A stretch of DNA of 64,000 nt from assembly GCA_943846685.1 (NCBI GenBank), contig OX044363.1, positions 2,015,386-2,079,385 on the forward strand, in the 5' to 3' direction. This DNA is from an uncultured Pseudomonadales bacterium (lineage in GTDB: Bacteria; Pseudomonadota; Gammaproteobacteria; Pseudomonadales; Porticoccaceae). A program made the translations under genes and the position numbers. Numbering within the stretch: position 1 is the first letter of the stretch; each line of letters opens with the position of its first letter. Shown piece by piece: positions 32,547 through 45,320 of the stretch. The notes beneath the pieces were generated by a model. It saw only the letters and a program-made list of their open reading frames with translations, did not search any database and was not told the origin of the DNA.

Positions 32547-33800
32547 ATGAGACCCAGCAGCAGAGCGATCAACTATAGACCACCACAGAGCATAGATCTG
32601 GTTATGCAGATGCTGATCTGTATGTTTATAGCTATGGTTCTAAGCACTGAGGCAGTCGCCCAAACAACCTCCCCAGAGAATCCAGAAAGCGACCCTATCA
32701 GCGACTATCTGGAAGCCATAGAAGCAACTGAAGCCGAGCGCAGCGCCTATTCTACAGAACTTTCTGACCTCTACTTTGGCCTTGGGAAATCGCATTTTTC
32801 AAAACGTGAATATGAGCGTGCACGTCGCGCCTATCAGCGCGGAATGCAGATTGAACGGGTCAACTATGGCCTTAACAGCCTCTCTCAAACCCCCTATCTA
32901 CTCTCCATAGCAGATGCCGAGAGCTTTCTTGGCAACTGGGAGGAATCTCAGGATGCTCTGGAAAATATCTACACTATTAACTCCCAAGCCTATGGTGAAA
33001 CTGATCCGCGGATGCTGCCAGTGCTCGATGAACTTCTCGACTGGTATTTGGATACCTATAAAGAGAGAACCCGCAATGGTGCCTACCAGAATTTAGTCAT
33101 GTCCGAGCGTCTGGGAAATCGTATTTCTAATATCCTCAAGACCCATAGTCTAGTCAACGACCCGGATGCAGCATTGCGATACCGCAAAATCAGTCATCTG
33201 CACTATTTTATCGCCAATCATATAAAACAGTATGGCGAGCCCTCAGATTCTGGCTTCACAATAAACGCTGGTGCCACTAAAAACAGCCAAACAAGCACTT
33301 CACACCAGCACTACCAGCGCGGCAAAGCGGCGCTAAAAAAAGTGATTGAGTCCCTTGAGCAACAACCGAACAGCAGTGCTGCCGAGAAAGCCGAAGCTGT
33401 GGCAGAACTCGGTGATTGGTACCTGGTATTTGGTCAGCGCATGTCTGCCAGCAAGGCCTATAAGCTCGCCTTCCAGACACTTCTGGCGACTAGCGAATCA
33501 CAGCAGCAGTCAGAAGCCCTATTTGACCAACCAAGCATTATTGAATTTACCGCCCTGGACGAAGGACAGGGAAGACAGGAATCACCACAACAGGATCTTC
33601 AGGTAGCCATGACTGTGACCAAAACTGGCATGCCAATAAAAATGGAGATTCTCAATCCTCCAGAAAGTATCACTAAGGCTGAGATTCGATCAATTCTAAA
33701 AGATATTCGCAGCAAACGTTTCAGACCCAAGCTTGTAGAGGGAATCACTACTGAGAGCAGTATTGTATTTCCCTATTCAAGCAACCAAACACAGGGATAA
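32547..33800 (+). CDS. Exported TPR protein with TonB-C-like C-terminus
   Basis: First gene of the envelope locus, 417 aa. A signal peptide or anchor covers residues 20–40 (MLICMFIAMVLSTEAVAQ). Residues about 65–310 contain repeated helix pairs of TPR type (LYFGLGKSHFSKREYERARR, then AELGDWYLVFGQRMSASKAY). The last 80 residues (VAMTVTKTGMPIKMEIL through FRPKLVEG) resemble the C-terminal fold of TonB, as in secreted proteins annotated as energy-transducer-like. GGAG lies seven bases ahead. Likely a periplasmic scaffold. Confidence 0.7.
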   Translation: MRPSSRAINYRPPQSIDLVMQMLICMFIAMVLSTEAVAQTTSPENPESDPISDYLEAIEATEAERSAYSTELSDLYFGLGKSHFSKREYERARRAYQRGMQIERVNYGLNSLSQTPYLLSIADAESFLGNWEESQDALENIYTINSQAYGETDPRMLPVLDELLDWYLDTYKERTRNGAYQNLVMSERLGNRISNILKTHSLVNDPDAALRYRKISHLHYFIANHIKQYGEPSDSGFTINAGATKNSQTSTSHQHYQRGKAALKKVIESLEQQPNSSAAEKAEAVAELGDWYLVFGQRMSASKAYKLAFQTLLATSESQQQSEALFDQPSIIEFTALDEGQGRQESPQQDLQVAMTVTKTGMPIKMEILNPPESITKAEIRSILKDIRSKRFRPKLVEGITTESSIVFPYSSNQTQG

Positions 33801-34606: not shown

Positions 34607-35842
34607 ATGACAAGAGTAAAGTTACTAATGAACAGCCGCAATATCTTAAGTTCATCTGCAATGAGCGCACTTATAACAGTGATGCTCAGCCTCGTACTGT
34701 TCGCCGCACCTTTAACAACAGCCTATGGCGCTGTAGACAAAGTAACCTCCTCAACCACCTTAACCCTGGCAACTCCGTCGCGCTCATTCCCGATAGAGTC
34801 ACTATTAGACGTAGGAATCCCAACCCTGAATGACGGGCTCTATCTGACCGACGAAGACGACACTGTATTTCCCGAAGTTCGCTATGCAGAGGCAATTTAC
34901 TTCTCCAATCAGTTGGGAAAAGTCCTAGAGAAAAGCGGCGCTTGGGGCGCTATTCGAGTGACCCCCAACAGCGATGTAATTATGGATCTATATATCACCG
35001 GCACCATCTTTCAGTCCGACGGCGAGACCATGGACCTAGAAATTGCAGTGGTTGATAGCAGTGGCAAGCAATGGTTTAAAAAACGCTATAAACAGACCAC
35101 CGGCAAGTACGCCTACGACCGGCGTTTAAAAAGCCTCGGCGATCCCTTCCAAAACCTGTTTATTCGTATTGCCAACGACCTACTCAAGTATCGAGAAAAA
35201 ATCAGCGATCAGCGGGCACAGGAACTGCGAACCATATCGGAACTGCGATTTGCCAAAAAATTCTCACCAGAAGCTTTTGATAACTATGTCGAAGAAGACC
35301 GCAAAGGGTTTTTAAGTATCGCGCGACTGCCCGCCGAAAATGACAGCATTCTTATCCGCGTGCGCAAAATCCGCGAGCGCGATTATCTCTATGTCGACAC
35401 CATGCAGGATTACTACGATGGCTTCTCCCAGCAGATGCACCTCGCCTACCAGGATTTTCGCCGCTCCTCCTACGACTCAGTGGTCAAAGCGCGACAGCTC
35501 AACGCCCAGGGCAATAAGCAAATCATCACTGGCATAGGTGCCATTCTGGCAGGCATTTATGGCCGCTCTCAGGCGCGCACCAGTATGGCCGACGACGCCG
35601 GCACCGCCACTGCCGCCGTGGGTGGATTTGTGATTAAATCCGGTCTCGACAAAAAACAGAAAGCCTCGGAATACAGCGAGTCGGTAGCCGAAATGGGCTC
35701 CTCTTTAGAAGCTGAAATTGCTCCTCAGGTTATCGAACTGGAAGATCGCACCGTCACCCTGACCGGTACGGTTCAGGCTCAGTATCAACAGTGGCAGGAA
35801 CTGCTCGGCAAAATTTATCAGCAGGAACGCGGGACACCCTAA
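34607..35842 (+). CDS. Exported protein of unknown function (assembly-lipoprotein-like N-terminal half)
   Basis: Periplasmic or outer-membrane-associated protein of 411 aa. Signal peptide to about residue 42 (ALITVMLSLVLFAAPLTTAYG). Residues 85–150 (ISFSNQLGKVLE-type helix, SGAWGAIRV, DLYITGTIFQSDGETMDLEI) recall the LptE/PqiC-like fold of auxiliary lipoproteins, though no lipobox Cys is present. A Gly/Ala-rich segment (IITGIGAILAGIYG) near residue 305 could insert in a membrane. AAGGA lies seven bases before the ATG. It starts four bases after the previous stop. Confidence 0.65.
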   Translation: MTRVKLLMNSRNILSSSAMSALITVMLSLVLFAAPLTTAYGAVDKVTSSTTLTLATPSRSFPIESLLDVGIPTLNDGLYLTDEDDTVFPEVRYAEAIYFSNQLGKVLEKSGAWGAIRVTPNSDVIMDLYITGTIFQSDGETMDLEIAVVDSSGKQWFKKRYKQTTGKYAYDRRLKSLGDPFQNLFIRIANDLLKYREKISDQRAQELRTISELRFAKKFSPEAFDNYVEEDRKGFLSIARLPAENDSILIRVRKIRERDYLYVDTMQDYYDGFSQQMHLAYQDFRRSSYDSVVKARQLNAQGNKQIITGIGAILAGIYGRSQARTSMADDAGTATAAVGGFVIKSGLDKKQKASEYSESVAEMGSSLEAEIAPQVIELEDRTVTLTGTVQAQYQQWQELLGKIYQQERGTP

Positions 35843-35845
35843 GCC

Positions 35846-37354
35846 ATGGATACCAGAGACGCCAAACAGACTAGCGCACACCCTGCTTTTAACGGACAAA
35901 ACAACAGCCAACAAAAACCAGTGAACAGTGGTGCGCGTAAAAGTGGTGTGCATCAGAGCGGCGTACAAAAAATTGTTATCTCTGTGCTTCTGCTGCTTGC
36001 CAGCGCGGTCATTTTCATCCTCCCCAAGGGCGTCACCGAACCCTGGGTTAACTATTCGGCACAGACTGAAAATACCCCGGTTAAACCAACGGCTTCAACC
36101 GTCAGCCCATCAACCGCGGCAGAAAAAACCAAATATCGACAGGACTCGCAGACGCTATTGGCGCAGATTATTGCCTACCGCGACCGCCTGCAGGAAACAC
36201 GAGTCGAGCTGTGGGGGGATTTTGAATACAAACAGGCACTATTGCAGATAGAGCGCGGTGACCAGCAATACCAATACGGCGAATACGCTGAATCGGTTGC
36301 CAGTTACCAGAGTGCTCTGGACCAACTCAGCGTCCTTGAGAGCAGCGGAAAATCGATTCTCAGCGAGGCTATCGCCAACACCGCCAGCGCTATCGAAGAG
36401 ACTGTTCTCAGTACTGCCACCACAGCCATAGAGCTGGCCAGCGCCATGGCTCCCGGCAATAAACAGGTGCAACAGCTCAGTCAGCGCGTCGCCAACTTGC
36501 CGCAGCTGATAGAAGCTATGCAGCAGGGCGACAAGTTCAGTGCACGCAGCCAACTCAGCGCCGCCAAACAAGCCTTTAACGAAGCAGTTAAACTCGATCC
36601 AGAACATAAACAAGCCGCCGCAGCACTAGCTAAAACCAACCAGCAAATCACTGAACAGCGCTTTCGAGGCTTTATGAGTGAAGGCTTTAGCGCACTGGAT
36701 AAAGATAACTTTGTAGACGCCAAAGCCGCCTTTAATCGAGCCGCCACTGTATATACCGACCACCCTGCCATCGCGCAGGCGCTTGCCCTGTTGGAGACGC
36801 GCCGCTCGCAACTCTGGGTAACCAGCAATATGGCCCGTGCAGCGGAATTTGTAGCTCAAGAAAAATGGCAGCGTGCCAACACGGTCTATCAAAAATTATT
36901 ACTCGCTGACAGCACTCTCACCGATGTCAAAGTAAAACAGATTCCGGTTGCCGTGCGCGCCGACCTGGATCAGCGTATCAAGGCCATTATCGAAGACCCT
37001 CTCGCGCTTTCAGCGAGTAGCCAATTTCGGAAAGCCCAACAGGCCCTGCAAGATGCTTCGGGAATTTCCACTCCCGGCCCAATACTCAAACAACAGATTG
37101 CCACCCTTAGAGAGACTCTAAAAGCCTCACAAACACCGGTAGAGATCGCACTAACCTCCAACAGTAATACAGAGGTGACATTATTTAGAATCGTCAAACT
37201 CGGGACCTTTGAGAAAACCTCGGTGGCACTAAAACCCGGCCGCTATATAGCCGCTGGTACCAGAAGTGGCTATCGGGATGTGCGAATTGAATTTACCGTC
37301 ACCGGCCAAGGCTTCGATGCACCGATTACGATTAGCTGTAATGAAGCTATTTAA
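35846..37354 (+). CDS. Membrane-anchored TPR protein with PEGA-like C-terminus
   Basis: Bitopic protein of 502 aa, most of it predicted in the periplasm. Basic, Gln-rich N-terminus, one membrane helix at residues 43–59 (IVISVLLLLASAVIFIL), then helical repeats from about 105 to 400, including TPR-like pairs (YGEYAESVASYQSALDQL; RSQLSAAKQAFNEAVKLDPE; NFVDAKAAFNRAATVY). Residues 425–502 are beta-rich and PEGA-like (LKPGRYIAAGTRSGYRDV). The gene lies three bases after its upstream neighbour and shares its architecture theme with the next one. Confidence 0.7.
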   Translation: MDTRDAKQTSAHPAFNGQNNSQQKPVNSGARKSGVHQSGVQKIVISVLLLLASAVIFILPKGVTEPWVNYSAQTENTPVKPTASTVSPSTAAEKTKYRQDSQTLLAQIIAYRDRLQETRVELWGDFEYKQALLQIERGDQQYQYGEYAESVASYQSALDQLSVLESSGKSILSEAIANTASAIEETVLSTATTAIELASAMAPGNKQVQQLSQRVANLPQLIEAMQQGDKFSARSQLSAAKQAFNEAVKLDPEHKQAAAALAKTNQQITEQRFRGFMSEGFSALDKDNFVDAKAAFNRAATVYTDHPAIAQALALLETRRSQLWVTSNMARAAEFVAQEKWQRANTVYQKLLLADSTLTDVKVKQIPVAVRADLDQRIKAIIEDPLALSASSQFRKAQQALQDASGISTPGPILKQQIATLRETLKASQTPVEIALTSNSNTEVTLFRIVKLGTFEKTSVALKPGRYIAAGTRSGYRDVRIEFTVTGQGFDAPITISCNEAI

Positions 37355-37461: not shown

Positions 37462-39552
37462 ATGGTCGACAATAAAGATGCCCAACCACTAACTGCAACC
37501 GACTTTACGCCGCTGAAAAGCAAGGCGAAAAAGCGTGGCACCCGTCCATCTGCGGCACTGCTGTTTACCACAGCATTCACAGTGGTCGCGCTGGTTATTC
37601 TAATATTCTTATTTGCCGCACGAGCTATTATTCTACGTCTCGAGCCGGCCACGGCTGTGGTTGATATCAGCGGTCTGAGCTTTCATATTGGCGATAACTA
37701 TCTACTGCTGCGCGGCGAGCATCAACTCAGTGCCGAAGCCCCGGGCTATTTTCCCCTAAACAAAACCATAGAGGTCGGCGATCAGGCCACTCAGGAGATC
37801 GATGTCGAGCTGCAACCCCTGCCGGGCAATCTTCTGATCAATGCCAGCCTCAGCGATATAAAGGTATTTATTGATGATCAGCTGGCGGGTACAGTGCCGG
37901 GAACTCTCGAAGGGATTAGTCGCGGCGCCCACAAACTCGAGTTTAAAAAATACCGTTATTTCCCCCTGCGACAGGAAGTACAGATCGAAGGTCTGGGCAA
38001 AACTCAGGCCATAGATATTTCCCTGCAACCGGCTTGGGGACATATTGATTTCACCTCCGATCCGACAGCGGCTGAACTGTATATTGATGATCGCCTAATC
38101 GGCACAACCCCGATCTCAGCAGAAGTATTGGAAACCGGAAGCAGGCTAACTCTCAAGGCAAGCGGCTATAAAACCCTACAACAGCAAGTCACCGTTAAAG
38201 CCGGCAGCAAAGCCCAGCACCCATTAATTGAAATGATTGTCGCCGATGGCCGCCTGTCTATTAACAGCTCCCCTGCGGGCGCCAGTATTACCATTGATCA
38301 ACAATTTTCCGGTGTCACGCCTTTAACAGTCGATGTAGTGCCATTTAAAAAACATCAGGTTGAGTTATTTCTCGAAGGCTATCTAAAAGCCAGCCGATCC
38401 ATGCAGGTTGAACCCGAGCAACGGGCACAACTAAGTGTCGATCTAAGACCCAATATAGGCACAGTGCAGTTAACAGTGAGTCCCGCAGATGCAGTGGTTA
38501 AAGTCGATGGCAAGCTGTACAGCAGTAGCAGTAAAACCGGCAGTCAGACCCTGTCTCTCAATGCCAAGCCCCACAGTATCAGCGCGGAAAAGCCCGGCTA
38601 CCAGACCAAGTCGATGAGTGTCACTCCCAGACCCGCCCATCAGCAGGCTCTAACTATTAACCTGCTGACTCTGCAGCAGGCTTACTGGGCATCCCGTCCA
38701 CCACAGATAAACAGCTCGGTAGGTATCAACTTAAAACTATTCCGCCCCGATCCGCAGCAGCCGTTTATGCTCGGCGCACCACGGCGACAGCCGGGCAGAC
38801 GAGCCAATGAAGCAGAGCGCTCCGTCGCCCTGCAACGCCCCTTTTACCTAGCCACCCATGAAACCACCAATGCCCAGTACCGACAGTGGAAAGAACAGCA
38901 CAGCTCAACTGCTATTAAGGGCCAAACTCTGGATATGAACGATCAGCCAGTCGCCAAGGTTAGTTGGGAAGATGCCGCGCTGTTCTGCAACTGGTTGAGC
39001 CGCAAAGAGGGTTTAGCGCCTTTCTACAATGTCGAACAGGGTCGTGTTGTCAGCGTTAACTGGGATGCTTCCGGCTACCGGCTTCCCACCGAGGCGGAAT
39101 GGGCCTGGGCAGCAAAAATCGATCTGCGCTCAAAAAGCCATATCTTCCCCTGGAGCAACGACCTCTTCCCACCACTAAAGATCAACGATAATTACGCGGA
39201 TAAAAGCGCCAGTGCTTTTCTGACCTTTACACTGCCCAACTACAATGACCAGTATCCAGTGTCTGCGGTGGTTGGCAGCTTTAAAGCCAACAGCAAAGGG
39301 CTCTATGAAATGAGCGGCAATGTTGCCGAATGGGTCAACGACTATTTTGATATACGCCCGCGGCGCGGTGAACCGCAACTCGACCCGCGCGGCCCGCAAC
39401 AGGGTAATAAACATGTTATTCGCGGTGCCAGCTGGGCCCTCGCCTCGCGCACCGAATTGCGCCTTAGCTACCGCGACTCAGGCAATGATGGGCGCATTGA
39501 TCTGGGCTTTAGAATCGCCAGATATGTAGACAAACCCGGAAGTGACCTATGA
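37462..39552 (+). CDS. PEGA-repeat protein fused to an FGE/SUMF1-like domain
   Basis: Large bitopic envelope protein of 696 aa. One membrane helix at about residues 31–54, then four to five PEGA-type beta repeats to residue 400 (for example AELYIDDRLIGTTPISAEVL and ASITIDQQFSGVTPLTVDVV). Residues 415–690 are a formylglycine-generating-enzyme/PvdO-like fold: FYLATHETTNAQYRQW, GYRLPTEAEWAWAAK, GLYEMSGNVAEWVNDYF, HVIRGASWA, LGFRIARY. The paired active-site cysteines of true FGE are not in the RGASW–GFR segment, so sulfatase activation is unlikely. A binding or structural role is my inference. Confidence 0.8.
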   Translation: MVDNKDAQPLTATDFTPLKSKAKKRGTRPSAALLFTTAFTVVALVILIFLFAARAIILRLEPATAVVDISGLSFHIGDNYLLLRGEHQLSAEAPGYFPLNKTIEVGDQATQEIDVELQPLPGNLLINASLSDIKVFIDDQLAGTVPGTLEGISRGAHKLEFKKYRYFPLRQEVQIEGLGKTQAIDISLQPAWGHIDFTSDPTAAELYIDDRLIGTTPISAEVLETGSRLTLKASGYKTLQQQVTVKAGSKAQHPLIEMIVADGRLSINSSPAGASITIDQQFSGVTPLTVDVVPFKKHQVELFLEGYLKASRSMQVEPEQRAQLSVDLRPNIGTVQLTVSPADAVVKVDGKLYSSSSKTGSQTLSLNAKPHSISAEKPGYQTKSMSVTPRPAHQQALTINLLTLQQAYWASRPPQINSSVGINLKLFRPDPQQPFMLGAPRRQPGRRANEAERSVALQRPFYLATHETTNAQYRQWKEQHSSTAIKGQTLDMNDQPVAKVSWEDAALFCNWLSRKEGLAPFYNVEQGRVVSVNWDASGYRLPTEAEWAWAAKIDLRSKSHIFPWSNDLFPPLKINDNYADKSASAFLTFTLPNYNDQYPVSAVVGSFKANSKGLYEMSGNVAEWVNDYFDIRPRRGEPQLDPRGPQQGNKHVIRGASWALASRTELRLSYRDSGNDGRIDLGFRIARYVDKPGSDL

Positions 39553-39836
39553 ATCGCCCACTTAAAACTATTAAGCAAATAATCCGTTTAGGGCCTGCAC
39601 AGACTCTGGCTACTCTTCTAGTGTTGGCAGCAATTACTTTTTCAGCAGCGCTTTGGTCCGAGGATAAAGTCGAGGCTGCTGAGATGCCAAAGGCTTCAGA
39701 GGCAGCACAACAGCCGTCCGAAAGCGATCAAGAACGACCAGATCAGGCCGCAGACGAGCCCAAACCTCCCAGCGACTTCATACCCAGCGAAGAGATTTCC
39801 GAAGACTTTCCGATTCCTCTTCCCTCTGATATTTAA
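39549..39836 (+). CDS. Small membrane-anchored acidic protein
   Basis: Protein of 95 aa with no recognised family. A basic N-terminus, one hydrophobic helix (about residues 18–36, LATLLVLAAITFSAALW), then a short Ala/Glu/Pro/Asp-rich tail predicted in the periplasm. Its ATG overlaps the stop of the PEGA–FGE gene (ATGA), so it is translated with it. A small partner subunit of the locus is likely. Confidence 0.6.
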   Translation: MNRPLKTIKQIIRLGPAQTLATLLVLAAITFSAALWSEDKVEAAEMPKASEAAQQPSESDQERPDQAADEPKPPSDFIPSEEISEDFPIPLPSDI

Positions 39837-40670: not shown

Positions 40671-42002
40671 ATGAGCACTGCTGTCCTCGAACTTAACGAT
40701 CAGGCGCTACTGATTAAAACTCAGACGGGCGAAGCCTATTCCGAGCCAGGATTTGCCCTGCATACAGAACAGGGCATTATCACCGGTCTTCCGGCCCGTC
40801 AGCAGGCCTGGTTACAGCCGCAAAATATCTATCGCGAATACTGGCGACAACTCAATCAGGCGCCGCTGTCCGGCGAACAACAGTGGGCTCGCCATCACGC
40901 CGATATCGCCTATGCACAACTGCACAGCCTACTCACCAAAGCCGGCACACCCGAGCAGTTAATACTCTGTGTTCCCGGCACATTCGACGATCAGCAGCTA
41001 TCGCTATTGCTCGGTTTAATAGATGCCTTTAAAACCGAAGCAGTTAAAACAACGGTAGTCTCAGTAATAGACAACAGTCTCGCCAACTGTCTTTACCTGG
41101 AAGACTCTATTGAGAGTCCTGAGAATATTAAGTCGTCGGAAAAACAGACCCTGCACGTTGATTTACAGATGCAGCAAATGATCGTCAGCCAAGTTAGCTT
41201 TGAACGCAACAGCCTGCGTGTTGAAGCCCATCAGGTAATTCCAGATATAGGTGCCAGCCATATTTACAACGCCCTAGCCAGCTATATCAGAGATCTGGCG
41301 ATCAAAAATCATCGCTTTGACCCACTGCATACTTCTGAGGGAGAACAGGCTATTTATGATCAGCTACCCAATCTGGTAGCACGCTTTGGCGGTATCTCTG
41401 AATGCGAACTTATCCTCAGCTCACCGCGAGGGGATCTGCCGATACTGTTACGCAAGAGCGAACTCGAAGCGTTACTCGAACCTCGCCTGCAGAGCTTGAC
41501 CCGACTGATCAGTAAAAAAGCCGCCGCCGATATCACCCTGTCTCACAATACAAAATTGATCTCTGCCCTGCACTCAGGTTTTGGTGGCGCCCGACAACTT
41601 AATGAGACTCAGGCGGTTGATAACTGCCTGAGAGGTTACGACAGCCTTTTAAAGCACAGCGAAAACCTTCACCGTATCACCGCAATTGAACAGACAGTCA
41701 GCTTCACCGGCAGACGCAAAACAGATATAGCGCCACCAGCTCCAGCCACCCATCTGCTCTATCAGGGACGAGCCTGGCCGCTTAATGAGCCGGTCAGTAT
41801 TGGTATTGATGGCAAGCGCCTGAACATCACTCAGTTGGTCGACAGCAGTGCCACGCTGGTTATCTCCATCAATAACCACAGTCTCAATATTCTTCATCAC
41901 GACAACCAGATTTCAATAGAACTGCCCGATAGCGCCGCCCCCGGCGGAAAAATATTTATCGGCGACTTTCGGCTGCAATTAATCGAGGTCTGCAATGGCT
42001 AA
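40671..42002 (+). CDS. Hsp70/actin-fold-like protein with possible FHA-like C-terminus
   Basis: Cytoplasmic protein of 443 aa without signal peptide or membrane helix. Residues 1–330 resemble a degenerate Hsp70/actin-type ATPase: an N-terminal strand STAVLELNDQALLIKTQ where the phosphate loop would be, LILCVPGTFDDQQLSLLLGL as in the Hsp70 VPAxFxxxQR block, then SVIDNSLANCLYLED. Canonical nucleotide-binding glycines are poorly kept. Residues 360–443 (AWPLNEPVSIG, ISINNHSLNIL, GKIFIGDFRLQLIEV) look FHA-like. It starts three bases after the channel gene and overlaps the next gene by eight. Confidence 0.55.
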   Translation: MSTAVLELNDQALLIKTQTGEAYSEPGFALHTEQGIITGLPARQQAWLQPQNIYREYWRQLNQAPLSGEQQWARHHADIAYAQLHSLLTKAGTPEQLILCVPGTFDDQQLSLLLGLIDAFKTEAVKTTVVSVIDNSLANCLYLEDSIESPENIKSSEKQTLHVDLQMQQMIVSQVSFERNSLRVEAHQVIPDIGASHIYNALASYIRDLAIKNHRFDPLHTSEGEQAIYDQLPNLVARFGGISECELILSSPRGDLPILLRKSELEALLEPRLQSLTRLISKKAAADITLSHNTKLISALHSGFGGARQLNETQAVDNCLRGYDSLLKHSENLHRITAIEQTVSFTGRRKTDIAPPAPATHLLYQGRAWPLNEPVSIGIDGKRLNITQLVDSSATLVISINNHSLNILHHDNQISIELPDSAAPGGKIFIGDFRLQLIEVCNG

Positions 42003-43053
42003 GAAGCGCCGCAATATTGCCTTTAGTCTCTCCTTTCTGGACATTATGGCCTGCGGCTTTGGTGCAGTAACTCTGCTATTTTTAATTCTTCGTCACAATG
42101 CCACCGAGATCGAACTACCCGACCCAAGACTGGCCTCAGAAGTGGATCTGCTGCAAGAGGATATTAGTCAGGCCGAGCGGGAAAAAGTCGAATTACTTAA
42201 CAGCCTTAAGGAACTGCAGCTGCAATTGGTTACTGCGCAAGGTGCCTCTGATCGAGTAATTACCGATCTGCAGGAACAGGAAAAAAGCATTCAGGCCGAC
42301 CCCAAAGATGATATTGCCAAACTGCGCCGTCAAGTCGAGCAGTTGGAAATAGAGACCGCGCAGATGGAAGAGGTGGAGTTTGGCGACAAGGTGCGCGAAT
42401 TTCTTGGGGATGGCAATCGCCAGTATCTCACTGGCCTTAAACTCGGTGGCGAACGGGTAATGATTCTAGTGGATGGTTCGGCCAGTATGCTCGCGGACAC
42501 TGTGGTCAACGCGGTGCGCCGACGCAATATGGATGACAGCCAGAAAAAGCAGTCGCCAAAATGGGTTTGGACTATGCGCACCGTGGAATGGTTGTTAGCC
42601 CAATTGCCGCCAAGCAGTCGCTTCCAGGTCTATATCTTTAACACCGAAGCAGCGCCGGCAATTCTAGGCAGCGAAGGCGAATGGCTAGATGCCGCAGACT
42701 CTCTGGATCTGGAAAAAGCGGTAGAGGGCCTGCGCAACTATTCACCGGGTAATGGCACCAGTCTTATCAATGCCATTGCCGCAGTGAATGACTTTGAAAA
42801 TAAACCGGACAATCTGTTTTTACTCACCGACGGACTACCCACTCAGGGCGCCAGCCCTCCAAAAAAATATATGGTCAGCGGCCGCCAGCGCCGCGATTTC
42901 TTTGCCGCCGCAGTGAATAGCCTGCCGCGAGGCATTCCAGTCAATACGATTCTATTCCCCATGGAAGGTGACCCAGAAGCCGCCGCACTGTTCTGGCAAC
43001 TGGCACTAAATACACAGGGCGCCTTTATTGCCCCCTCGCGAGACTGGCCATGA
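41995..43053 (+). CDS. VWA-domain protein with ExbD/TolR-like N-terminal helix (first copy)
   Basis: Bitopic protein of 352 aa. A short basic cytoplasmic start is followed by one membrane helix with Asp16 (SFLDIMACGFGAVTLLFLIL), comparable to the PFIDVM helix of ExbD, whose Asp carries protons. Residues 40–130 form a coiled coil (VDLLQEDISQAEREKVELL). The periplasmic von Willebrand A domain starts near 150 with the MIDAS motif ILVDGSASM (Asp160), then NGTSLINAIAAV and FLLTDGLP. I infer a stator B-subunit in which VWA replaces the usual peptidoglycan-binding domain. Confidence 0.78.
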   Translation: MAKKRRNIAFSLSFLDIMACGFGAVTLLFLILRHNATEIELPDPRLASEVDLLQEDISQAEREKVELLNSLKELQLQLVTAQGASDRVITDLQEQEKSIQADPKDDIAKLRRQVEQLEIETAQMEEVEFGDKVREFLGDGNRQYLTGLKLGGERVMILVDGSASMLADTVVNAVRRRNMDDSQKKQSPKWVWTMRTVEWLLAQLPPSSRFQVYIFNTEAAPAILGSEGEWLDAADSLDLEKAVEGLRNYSPGNGTSLINAIAAVNDFENKPDNLFLLTDGLPTQGASPPKKYMVSGRQRRDFFAAAVNSLPRGIPVNTILFPMEGDPEAAALFWQLALNTQGAFIAPSRDWP

Positions 43054-44039
43054 AACGCCAACGCCGAGCCTCTCAGGAAGCCAGCATTTCATTTTTGGAT
43101 GTTATCAGCTGTGGCTTTGGCGCTATCGTGCTGTTGCTGGTGATAGCCCGAGTCGGCGACCCCGCCGCCCTTGAAGAGGCCGAGAACAAACTGCGCGCAA
43201 CCGTCAAAGACTATCAGGAGCGCCTATTTGATGTGCGCGGTGAATCCGTCGTTCTCAACGAACAGCTTAAATCCCGTAAGCAACAGCTCTCCGAGCTAAC
43301 CGAGCGTGTAGCTCGCCTGAAAGCCAAACTCGCCAGTATTGAAAAGCAGTCTGTGCAGATATCCCAATCCGAAGCGCGAGAAAAAAAGCAGTTACAGCTA
43401 GTGATGCAGGTTCTTAGCGAAGAGATGGAGCGCCTGCTCGGCCCTGAATTTAAGCAGCAGAATAAATTGATTGGCGGTATTCCGGTCGACAGTGACTATA
43501 TTATTTTTGTCATCGACACCTCCGGCAGTATGCAGGTCGCCGCCTGGGAAAAAGTCAAAAAAGAGATGATCAATATTCTCGACATCTACCCAGATGTCAA
43601 AGGCCTGCAGGTGCTCAATGATATGGGCCAGTATATGTTCTCTGCCTACCGCGGCCGCTGGATACCGGATAGCCCGGAGATGCGCAAAAACATCGTTAAA
43701 ACCTTAAATACCTGGGCACCATTTAGTAACTCCAGTCCGGTTGAAGGGATTAATGCGGCAATTCAGACCTTTTACAAAGCCGACCGAAAAATCAGTATCT
43801 ACACCCTTGGGGATGACTTTCAGGGCCGCTCGATTCGCAATATAGTCAAAGCCATCGACCGGTTAAATCAGGCACACCGCGGAGCCGACCGGCTGGTGCG
43901 TATTCATGCCATAGGATTTCCTGTGCATTTTCCACCGGGCGGAACCCCCAGCGCCTCGGCAATTAAGTTCGCCGCTCTAATGCGTGAACTAAGCTATAAC
44001 AATGGGGGAACCTTTATTGGCCTTAACAGCCTTAATTAA
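43050..44039 (+). CDS. VWA-domain protein with ExbD/TolR-like N-terminal helix (second copy)
   Basis: Paralogue of the preceding gene in architecture, 329 aa. Membrane helix with Asp17 (ISFLDVISCGFGAIVLLLVI), coiled coil at about 45–125 (ENKLRATVKDYQERLFDV), then a VWA domain with MIDAS IFVIDTSGSMQ (Asp156) and FSNSSPVEGINAAI, YTLGDDF. Sequence identity between the copies is high only in the helix, so they are probably non-interchangeable partners, perhaps a heterodimer. Its ATG overlaps the stop of the first copy. Confidence 0.78.
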   Translation: MKRQRRASQEASISFLDVISCGFGAIVLLLVIARVGDPAALEEAENKLRATVKDYQERLFDVRGESVVLNEQLKSRKQQLSELTERVARLKAKLASIEKQSVQISQSEAREKKQLQLVMQVLSEEMERLLGPEFKQQNKLIGGIPVDSDYIIFVIDTSGSMQVAAWEKVKKEMINILDIYPDVKGLQVLNDMGQYMFSAYRGRWIPDSPEMRKNIVKTLNTWAPFSNSSPVEGINAAIQTFYKADRKISIYTLGDDFQGRSIRNIVKAIDRLNQAHRGADRLVRIHAIGFPVHFPPGGTPSASAIKFAALMRELSYNNGGTFIGLNSLN

Positions 44040-44052
44040 AGGGATCATAATT

Positions 44053-44667
44053 ATGCAGATAACTAAAATACATCTTATTGCCAGCCTTCTTGCCCTGTTC
44101 GCCATTACCGGCTGCAGCTCATCGGCACAGGTTCAGGTCGAGCGAAACTTCCCAACCGTGGTCTCAAAACCCAAGGCTGTCAGCGCCTCGATTATCTTTA
44201 ACGACGAATTTAAAAACTATGTGGCAACACCGAGCAAGAACACCACCATTGCTATAGGCTCGGCTCAAACCCTTATGCTTAGCAATGCCTTTGCAGGGCT
44301 GTTTAACAAAATCGAATTTGTTCAATCCAGGGATCAGGTAAGCTTTGAAAATGCGCTGGTGATCACCCCATTGGTTCAGGAAGTTCAGGTCTCAACACCC
44401 TCCGACACCTATCTAAATGTCTATGAGGTGTGGATCAAATACAGCCTAGATATCCAAAATGCCAAAGGCGATCAAATCGACAACTGGTTTATGCCCGCCT
44501 ACGGCAAGACACCGGATTCTTTTATGTTGTCAAAAACCAATGCCATCGAAGAAGCTACCGTTATCGCCCTGCGCGATGCAGGTGCCAAATTACTCCTCGA
44601 TTTTTATCGAATTCCGAGTATCTACAATTGGCTGGTAAGAGAACGAAAGCTAGGAGATGAGCAGTGA
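44053..44667 (+). CDS. Lipoprotein of unknown function
   Basis: Predicted outer-membrane lipoprotein of 204 aa. Signal sequence and lipobox AITGC at about residue 19. The body (VSASIIFNDEFKNYVATPSK; AQTLMLSNAFAGLFNKIEFV; VYEVWIKYSLDIQNAKGDQI) has the alternating helix and strand pattern of YajG/LptE-like accessory lipoproteins, but I cannot name a family. I start at ATG 44053, preceded by AAGGGAT; a longer frame overlaps the VWA gene. It overlaps the next lipoprotein by four bases. Confidence 0.7.
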   Translation: MQITKIHLIASLLALFAITGCSSSAQVQVERNFPTVVSKPKAVSASIIFNDEFKNYVATPSKNTTIAIGSAQTLMLSNAFAGLFNKIEFVQSRDQVSFENALVITPLVQEVQVSTPSDTYLNVYEVWIKYSLDIQNAKGDQIDNWFMPAYGKTPDSFMLSKTNAIEEATVIALRDAGAKLLLDFYRIPSIYNWLVRERKLGDEQ

Positions 44668-45320
44668 AAAAATCAATCCTTCTCATTAGCATGGCAGCAC
44701 TACTCGGCGGCTGTGGCGCCACCACTAGCATTGACGAATACCGTCCAAACAACAGCGTTATGGAAATCAACAGCGATGAATCAGTCGTTATACTCGGGCG
44801 CCGCGATGCCGGCCACTACGACACAGACCGTGAATTTATCAGCTGCGTTTCCGGAAAAATGAAAGGCGCGGACATAGGTGTTGTACCCGAGCAACAGTTT
44901 ATCGACTCCATCTACCCCTGGTTTGAGCCGCGTACAGCACCCAAGGGGCTGAAACGGCTCACCCGCCTTATGCAGGACCCAGATATTAAAAGCCAAGTCG
45001 ACATTCAGAGAATTCGCTATTTAGTCTGGCTTGATGGCTCCACCAAAACCGACAACCAAGGCGGCTCGATTAGCTGTGCCATAGGCCCCGGAGGCGGTGG
45101 CTGTTTCGGATTTGCGCAGTGGGAGAAAAGTTCTATTTACGAAGCGATTGTCTGGGACCTTAGTGACTTTAGTGAAAAAGGCCGACTGCGTGTAGACTCC
45201 GCAGGAACCTCGTATCTGATTGGCGCCGTGGCACCAATTCCGCTTTTAACGCCGGTAAAAAAAGATGCCTGCAGCAGCCTTGGCAAACAGCTAAAAAAAT
45301 TCTTTAGCGTGCAAAAGTAA
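44664..45320 (+). CDS. Second lipoprotein of unknown function
   Basis: Predicted lipoprotein of 218 aa starting at a GTG that overlaps the previous stop (GTGA), with AGGAG about seven bases upstream. Lipobox LLGGC at residues 13–17. The mature part has several Cys (FISCVSG, SISCAIGPGGGGCFGFAQW and DACSSLG) that could form disulfides in the periplasm. No family recognised. It is likely co-translated with the first lipoprotein, suggesting a pair. Confidence 0.7.
   Translation: MKKSILLISMAALLGGCGATTSIDEYRPNNSVMEINSDESVVILGRRDAGHYDTDREFISCVSGKMKGADIGVVPEQQFIDSIYPWFEPRTAPKGLKRLTRLMQDPDIKSQVDIQRIRYLVWLDGSTKTDNQGGSISCAIGPGGGGCFGFAQWEKSSIYEAIVWDLSDFSEKGRLRVDSAGTSYLIGAVAPIPLLTPVKKDACSSLGKQLKKFFSVQK

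Follow-up and report, generated by a model that had tools for sequence, protein, structure and literature searches.

An open frame of 443 codons lies in a forward-strand operon in the window, by which we mean the whole 64,000-nucleotide stretch of DNA that was analysed (Table 1). It begins three bases downstream of a gene for a TolQ-like channel subunit and overlaps by eight bases the first of two consecutive genes for VWA proteins with an N-terminal transmembrane (TM) helix. The first-pass annotation had placed the gene in a motor operon with this same overlap, which is correct as stated, and the sequence blocks that it quoted are present as written; an overlap of exactly eight bases is also found in 41 of 78 relatives' loci. 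The highest mean hydrophobicity over 19 residues of the product, here called the pseudo-Hsp70 protein, is only 1.13, so that no membrane helix is expected, in agreement with the cytoplasmic location first ascribed to it. Comparison with two close relatives gave dN/dS values of 0.107 and 0.150 (Nei-Gojobori; dS in the second pair is near saturation, at 1.07), indicating purifying selection, although the channel and VWA genes, at 0.011-0.049, evolve more slowly.

Table 1. Position of the pseudo-Hsp70 gene, its parts and the neighbouring operon genes in the window
Feature	Position	Strand	Length, basis or occurrence
Pseudo-Hsp70/FHA protein, whole gene	40671..42002	+	443 aa
Hsp70-nucleotide-domain fold, residues 1-331, nucleotide motifs replaced	40671..41663	+	model, structure search and profiles
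Disordered linker, residues 346-354	41706..41732	+	pLDDT < 50
Degenerate FHA domain, residues 354-443, without phospho-threonine pocket residues	41730..41999	+	model, fold search, profile homology
TolQ/ExbB/MotA-type channel subunit, 264 aa	39873..40667	+	PF01618, E 9.6e-14
VWA1, with invariant Asp16 in its N-terminal TM helix and a DxSxS metal site in its VWA domain	41995..43053	+	
VWA2, with Asp17 (present in every row) in its N-terminal TM helix and a DxSxS metal site in its VWA domain	43050..44039	+	
PEGA repeats and FGE-sulfatase-type domain, N-terminal TM	37462..39552	+	
TM-TPR protein	35846..37354	+	
Small protein, one apparent TM helix, proline-rich tail (by eye)	39549..39836	+	operon member, 54/80 loci
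Conserved operon protein, without family match	34607..35842	+	65/80 loci
Putative lipoprotein 1 of operon (ORF opens at 44002)	44050..44667	+	74/80 loci
Putative lipoprotein 2 of operon	44664..45320	+	74/80 loci

The order channel, pseudo-Hsp70, VWA1, VWA2 is complete in 76 of 80 relatives' loci, the four exceptions lying at contig ends. The pseudo-Hsp70 gene is directly preceded by the channel gene in 79 of the 80 loci and directly followed by VWA1 in 79, and a distinct VWA2 comes after VWA1 in 77 (two further matches are VWA1 cross-matches). A PEGA-FGE gene is present in 73 and the TPR gene in 67, and trpA/trpB adjoin in 27, some loci being too short to reach them. The record titles of the near relatives are mostly Porticoccaceae or SAR92, and three named Microbulbifer strains have the operon; two contigs titled Klebsiella pneumoniae MAGs (L104 and L106) carry this operon, otherwise from marine-type gammaproteobacteria, and are probably mislabelled bins. 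In locus L098 the two lipoprotein genes lie upstream in reverse orientation (62-1400). Elsewhere in the window, a TPR protein encoded at 32547-33800 ends in about 60 residues that by eye look like a TonB C-terminal domain, and its Pfam matches are TPR repeats and weak chance matches only.

Both VWA proteins keep an aspartate in the TM helix, D16 in 78 of 78 VWA1 rows and D17 in all 75 true VWA2 rows (two VWA1 cross-matches having been removed from 77), the window included in each case. No match to ExbD/TolR was found among the ten window proteins scanned, a set to which the small protein at 39549 does not belong. A motor made of a TolQ-like channel and a VWA pair has already been predicted in print: the TPH-vWA motors described by Williams-Jones et al. 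(2025, PMC12204202) consist of a TolQ-like gene and a heterologous TM-vWA pair, with no tolR/exbD. The window operon fits this group, having in common with it a TolQ-like channel that adjoins two different VWA proteins with a conserved TM aspartate, and it is assigned by these shared features and not by sequence comparison with the Idiomarina family. The main text of that paper contains none of the terms hsp70, dnak, sulfatase or chaperone, and its sole match to 'fha' is FhaC; likewise, no description of an Hsp70-FHA protein in a TolQ-VWA operon was found among the open PubMed Central papers searched, a set without most subscription journals and without preprints.

In one family, represented by G413, G634 and G534, the Hsp70-like gene stays between the PEGA gene and VWA1 though the channel gene has moved. 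In G413 and G634 a Pfam search located this gene immediately downstream of VWA2, giving the order PEGA, Hsp70-like, VWA1, VWA2, channel, and on the G534 contig it found none; the channel profile had no match in loci L203, L205 and L211.

Fold and nucleotide site of the Hsp70-like domain

The structure of the pseudo-Hsp70 protein was predicted with AlphaFold (pLDDT 90.7, pTM 0.77) from an alignment of 56 rows, comprising the window protein together with 55 relatives' loci, chosen from the 80 after omission of fragments, near-duplicates and some loci with an uncertain start or unread bases. Judged by their titles, all 50 rows listed by Foldseek are Hsp70-family entries (best E 4.3e-17). DnaK (2v7y; Z 27.9, rmsd 3.0, 312 aligned residues, 14% identity) gives the top structural alignment, which covers model residues 1-329 and is tied within 1 Z by many other Hsp70 structures. 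FtsA, PilM, MreB and GspL do not appear among the fold matches listed, which is a statement about that list and not a direct comparison with these proteins. The Hsp70/actin-like fold that had been proposed from the letters is thereby borne out and sharpened to the Hsp70 nucleotide domain. In the model the C-terminal substrate-binding domain and lid of Hsp70 are absent, and the C-terminus is FHA-derived instead.

Profile comparison argues that this likeness reflects homology. Between the nucleotide-domain profile and that of DnaK/HscA, 309 columns align at 20% identity, and the global comparison gives P 5.9e-6, with a score of 31.7, whereas 60 column shuffles reach 8.7 at most and the reversed profile scores 3.6. 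The local score is 31.5 against 21.1 (shuffles) and 17.4 (reversed), which taken alone is weak (P 0.0023, probability 12.5%), as is the comparison of the whole protein (P 0.0087, probability 4.6%). Searches with the single sequence against Pfam, NCBIfam and the PDB, and with the profile against the PDB, returned no match. PF00012 in particular does not match the protein, and a search of its own genome with this family gives six other places. Judged by the model and backed by the nucleotide-domain profiles, residues 1-331 have an Hsp70 nucleotide-domain fold.

What the protein has in common with the nucleotide-binding domain of Hsp70/DnaK is the fold, the order of elements, the P-x-N and VPxxFxxxQ anchors and two acidic positions; in contrast, the phosphate, catalytic Lys/Glu and adenosine motifs are replaced. 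Site positions were mapped by sequence anchors and predicted strands and not by superposed coordinates. The structural alignment puts residue 1 at DnaK residue 2, as the mapping needs, and the profile alignment uses another register at both phosphate loops. With this mapping, GIDLGTTNS of DnaK corresponds to VLELNDQA and DLGGGTFD to DLQMQQMI, so that ELNDQ and DLQMQQ stand where DLGTT and DLGGGT would be found, and the phosphate loops are non-canonical, as had been noticed at the outset. The catalytic-Lys helix is replaced by PQNIYREYWRQL, in which Trp58 falls at K70 by anchor matching; INEPTAAA becomes IDNSLAN, with N135 at the Glu site (mostly S or A in relatives), and GGQTRMP becomes HNTKLIS. 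The pattern D[LIV]G[GT] does not occur within the first 30 residues of any of the 56 rows, nor does any row carry a Gly at columns 166-167, where DnaK has GGG.

The replacements are themselves partly invariant. All 56 rows have the same residue at N9, D10, W58 and D134, while D78 and R215 are invariant and R74, H75 and D217 nearly so. Two acidic positions of the Hsp70 site also survive: at DnaK D8 an E or D stands in 55 of the 56 rows, and at D194 a D or E in every row. The pocket therefore looks rebuilt rather than decayed, and it may bind a partner or a ligand.

An FHA-derived tail and its company in one clade

Residues 354-443 were folded alone from an alignment of 43 rows, 13 of the 56 having been left out, among them both rows with an FHA hit, to avoid steering the model. 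The result is an eight-stranded all-beta model (pLDDT 92.3) whose nearest folds are FHA domains, at modest values (best VIA Z 6.2, rmsd 3.7, 81 aligned); Foldseek gave no match to it at E 0.001 or less. The cytoplasmic domains of PscD/YscD from the T3SS, different proteins of a different machine, are also among the fold matches (6uid Z 5.7, 4a0e Z 5.2), and in these proteins FHA-type folds are used as docking modules. Far stronger is the relationship to the FHA tails of six relatives, with which the tail alignment scores 57.4 against a shuffle maximum of 15.5 (P 9.3e-11). The first-pass annotation had thought the C-terminus FHA-like, and would have given up its reading if the predicted fold had been neither actin-like nor FHA-like; residues 1-329 match Hsp70, residues 354-443 match FHA modestly, and the tail is FHA-derived, with a pocket that is lost here and intact in some relatives.

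The loss is evident from the residues: the Gly-Arg (GR), Ser-Arg-x-His (SRxH) and Asn-Gly (NG) residues of the phospho-threonine pocket are absent from the window protein, which has no Pfam match to PF00498. Seven of 69 family members scanned exceed the cut-off of this family, one of them, L106, by 0.1 bit (20.8 vs 20.7 bits); L106 is counted as over the cut-off and not as an intact FHA. SRxHC occurs in five of 97 family loci (L098, L153, L155, L156 and L209) and ARHHC in L210, and S..HC without the Arg in L093 and L097 is taken as chance. A strict pattern for the intact pocket matched none of the 97 loci, and is too strict. Three divergent short members of about 300-340 aa (L149, L150 and L151) have no FHA tail that could be found. 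From the modest fold match and the strong homology to relatives' intact FHA tails, the window tail is best classed as a degenerate FHA domain.

New here is the observation that, in one clade, the intact FHA pocket goes with a kinase on the TPR protein and an FHA-like domain on the PEGA protein. In L098, L153, L156 and L209 the protein at the TPR position carries a Ser/Thr kinase domain at its N-terminus (PF00069, E 7.5e-19 to 5.1e-41), and all four of these loci, which are all that could be assessed, also have an intact FHA tail and an FHA-like N-terminal stretch on the PEGA protein; L155 and L210 likewise have FHA tails, and their kinase and PEGA positions lie beyond the DNA ends and outside this count. 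The PEGA stretch is below the Pfam FHA cut-off (best E 0.019) and FHA-like by a profile in which L195 and L200 are included (P 5.5e-6, score 37.4 vs shuffle maximum 19.9). The window PEGA-FGE protein is without this domain.

The other 82 TPR proteins, of which three (L212, L213 and L214) are second copies of one place, are at most 560 residues long, and their TM helix, where found (79 of 82), starts within the first 73 residues. So short an N-terminus leaves no room for a kinase, and Pfam found no kinase domain in the five of these proteins that were scanned. A further 24 loci, many of them short contigs, have no TPR match. Protein length, TM position and Pfam were used because a pattern for the HRD motif misses the L153 kinase. 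Kinase matches as such occur in 24 of 24 genomes, and only their operon position separates the groups.

The six loci with FHA tails group together in one clade (support 0.952), next to which stands a clade that lacks the Hsp70-like protein, and the association thus represents a single evolutionary event and not a repeated correlation; the tree is midpoint-rooted and does not settle loss versus gain of kinase and FHA. There are exceptions, as L106 exceeds the FHA cut-off without a kinase or a long PEGA N-terminus, and L195 and L200 have the PEGA FHA-like domain without a kinase and without the Hsp70-like protein. An alternation of the FHA domain between the two proteins, on the Hsp70-like one in some loci and on the PEGA one in others, was considered and dropped, as intact tails go with long, FHA-like PEGA N-termini.

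An optional part of the operon

The pseudo-Hsp70 protein was found in 27 of 56 genomes searched and, within the same genus, in 24 of 35, its own genome being included in both counts. Six of the 11 same-genus genomes without it are 1.2-1.4 Mb in size (G005, G008, G010, G014, G026 and G034), where it was perhaps lost with genome reduction; one 1.4 Mb genome has it. Broader draws at E 0.001, again including the own genome, gave matches in 67 of 293 genomes of the order (one over 49 residues only), 18 of 369 of the class and three of 398 of the phylum, the last all from the same class.

That the protein is optional is also new here. VWA2 (E 1e-10) is present in 30 genomes of the class draw, two of them weakly, and the 18 with the Hsp70-like protein are all among these. 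In the remaining 12, no more than about 90 bases separate the end of the channel gene from the start of VWA1 (for L200 this spacing is taken from the match position), which leaves no room for the Hsp70-like gene and marks it as an accessory part. These 12 genomes form two clades in the tree, which would mean two losses if the protein is ancestral.

Proposed function of the pseudo-Hsp70 protein

We propose that the pseudo-Hsp70 protein belongs, as an accessory subunit in the cytoplasm, to a predicted proton motor of the 5:2 type, in which a TolQ-like pentamer would be combined with the VWA1/VWA2 pair, and that it serves as a scaffold or clamp that does not hydrolyse ATP and docks through its FHA-derived tail; we put this at a little under one in two. 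Its nucleotide domain would probably not turn over ATP in the manner of Hsp70 and would instead act as the clamp or scaffold itself. Located at the cytoplasmic face of the motor, on the channel and/or the N-termini of the VWA proteins, as we infer, it would connect the motor, through its docking module, with the TPR protein, the PEGA-FGE protein or both by way of their cytoplasmic tails, and so help assembly or set the state of the motor. Because a TPR kinase, a PEGA FHA-like domain and an intact FHA pocket are found there, docking in one clade is probably phospho-dependent, with the tail reading phosphorylation by the operon's own kinase; in the window lineage the absence of the first two and the degenerate pocket suggest phospho-independent docking.

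In favour of such a scaffold, every one of the 18 class-draw genomes with the protein matches VWA2, and the gene order is kept in 76 of 80 loci. Against it stand the acids retained at D8 and D194, by which the site may still bind something, the 12 VWA2-bearing operons without the gene, the displaced channel gene of G413 and G634 and its absence from the G534 contig, the weakness of the local profile comparison taken alone, the origin of the kinase/FHA co-occurrence in one event, and the exceptions L106, L195 and L200 together with the tail-less L149-L151. The more specific suggestion of the first-pass annotation, that the protein gates the stator from inside, is possible, its comparison with FliI- or FtsA-type regulators being one of analogy only; the 12 channel-VWA-VWA operons that lack the protein, and the family in which the channel gene is not beside it, argue against gating as its core role. 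A bolder form of the scaffold proposal, which we offer tentatively, is that vWA-type 5:2 motors have a cytoplasmic phospho-control module. In it, a kinase-TPR protein in the membrane, a PEGA-FGE protein whose FHA-like domain lies in the cytoplasm and the pseudo-Hsp70-FHA protein would together switch the motor on or off from inside, the Hsp70 fold being a ligand- or phospho-gated clamp; the window lineage would have kept a remnant that works without phosphorylation and whose rebuilt pocket is still functional.

The rebuilt pocket also lends itself to a reading as a ligand switch, in which E7, N9, D10, W58, H75, D78, D134, D164 and the Q/H loop would bind a nucleotide or small molecule and the opening and closing of the domain would gate the motor. 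A dead pocket would be expected to drift, whereas the replacing residues are conserved, D78 and R215 are invariant and the acids at the D8 and D194 positions are kept. We nevertheless consider this doubtful, as D[LIV]G[GT] and the GGG loop are missing throughout and the conservation could instead reflect contacts with a partner or upkeep of the fold. Hsp70 ancestry, the overlap with VWA1 and the persistence of the gene beside VWA1 where the channel gene moved would suit an assembly chaperone, whose Hsp70-like body holds the VWA proteins before membrane insertion; this is unlikely for a protein that is modelled with an FHA-derived tail in place of a substrate-binding domain or lid, whose phosphate loops are replaced, and without which VWA pairs occur. 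FtsA, PilM and GspL belong to the same actin/Hsp70 superfamily and occupy a similar place at inner-membrane machines, and by analogy the protein could be membrane-associated and, as a cytoskeletal element or platform, determine where in the cell the motor lies, but since the titles of all 50 Foldseek rows listed name Hsp70-family proteins we regard this as quite improbable.

Least probable, with very little chance of being right, is a part in an anti-phage or conflict system resembling Zorya or the CoCoNuTs. Zorya also uses a MotA-like channel, and PADLOC matches VWA2 to LmuB (E 3.3e-4) and JetC (E 3.8e-4) over a coiled-coil stretch (residues 39-139). CoCoNuTs contain, in CnuD, a degenerate Hsp70-like domain within a multi-gene system that also has VWA genes, but as described in PMC11090510 they are type IV restriction systems with McrB GTPases, in which no channel or PEGA protein was seen. 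PADLOC gave no match to the pseudo-Hsp70 protein at E 0.1, the only match to the Zorya set among six proteins scanned was a weak one of the channel to ZorA (E 0.0072), and the adjoining trpA/trpB of 27 of 80 loci are unlike a mobile island. A different resemblance concerns the PEGA-FGE protein, which is similar to GldK/PorK of the T9SS/gliding machinery (TIGR03525, E 1.3e-26, 93.9 bits vs cut-off 350) and more weakly to GldJ; the T9SS has a proton motor, as the window operon is predicted to have, and neither GldL nor GldM had a match at E 1 among ten window proteins scanned.

What is known of the 5:2 proton motors Tol, Ton, Mot and Zor concerns mainly their parts in the membrane and the periplasm. 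The operon of this marine bacterium hints that such motors can have a control or assembly part at the inner face. A conserved cytoplasmic pseudo-Hsp70 protein, together with the kinase and FHA domains of its relatives, would give one of the newly predicted motors a possible control arm, and would offer a handle with which to test what the motor does. Beyond the motor, the protein adds a case in which an Hsp70 domain appears to have been reused with a rebuilt active site.
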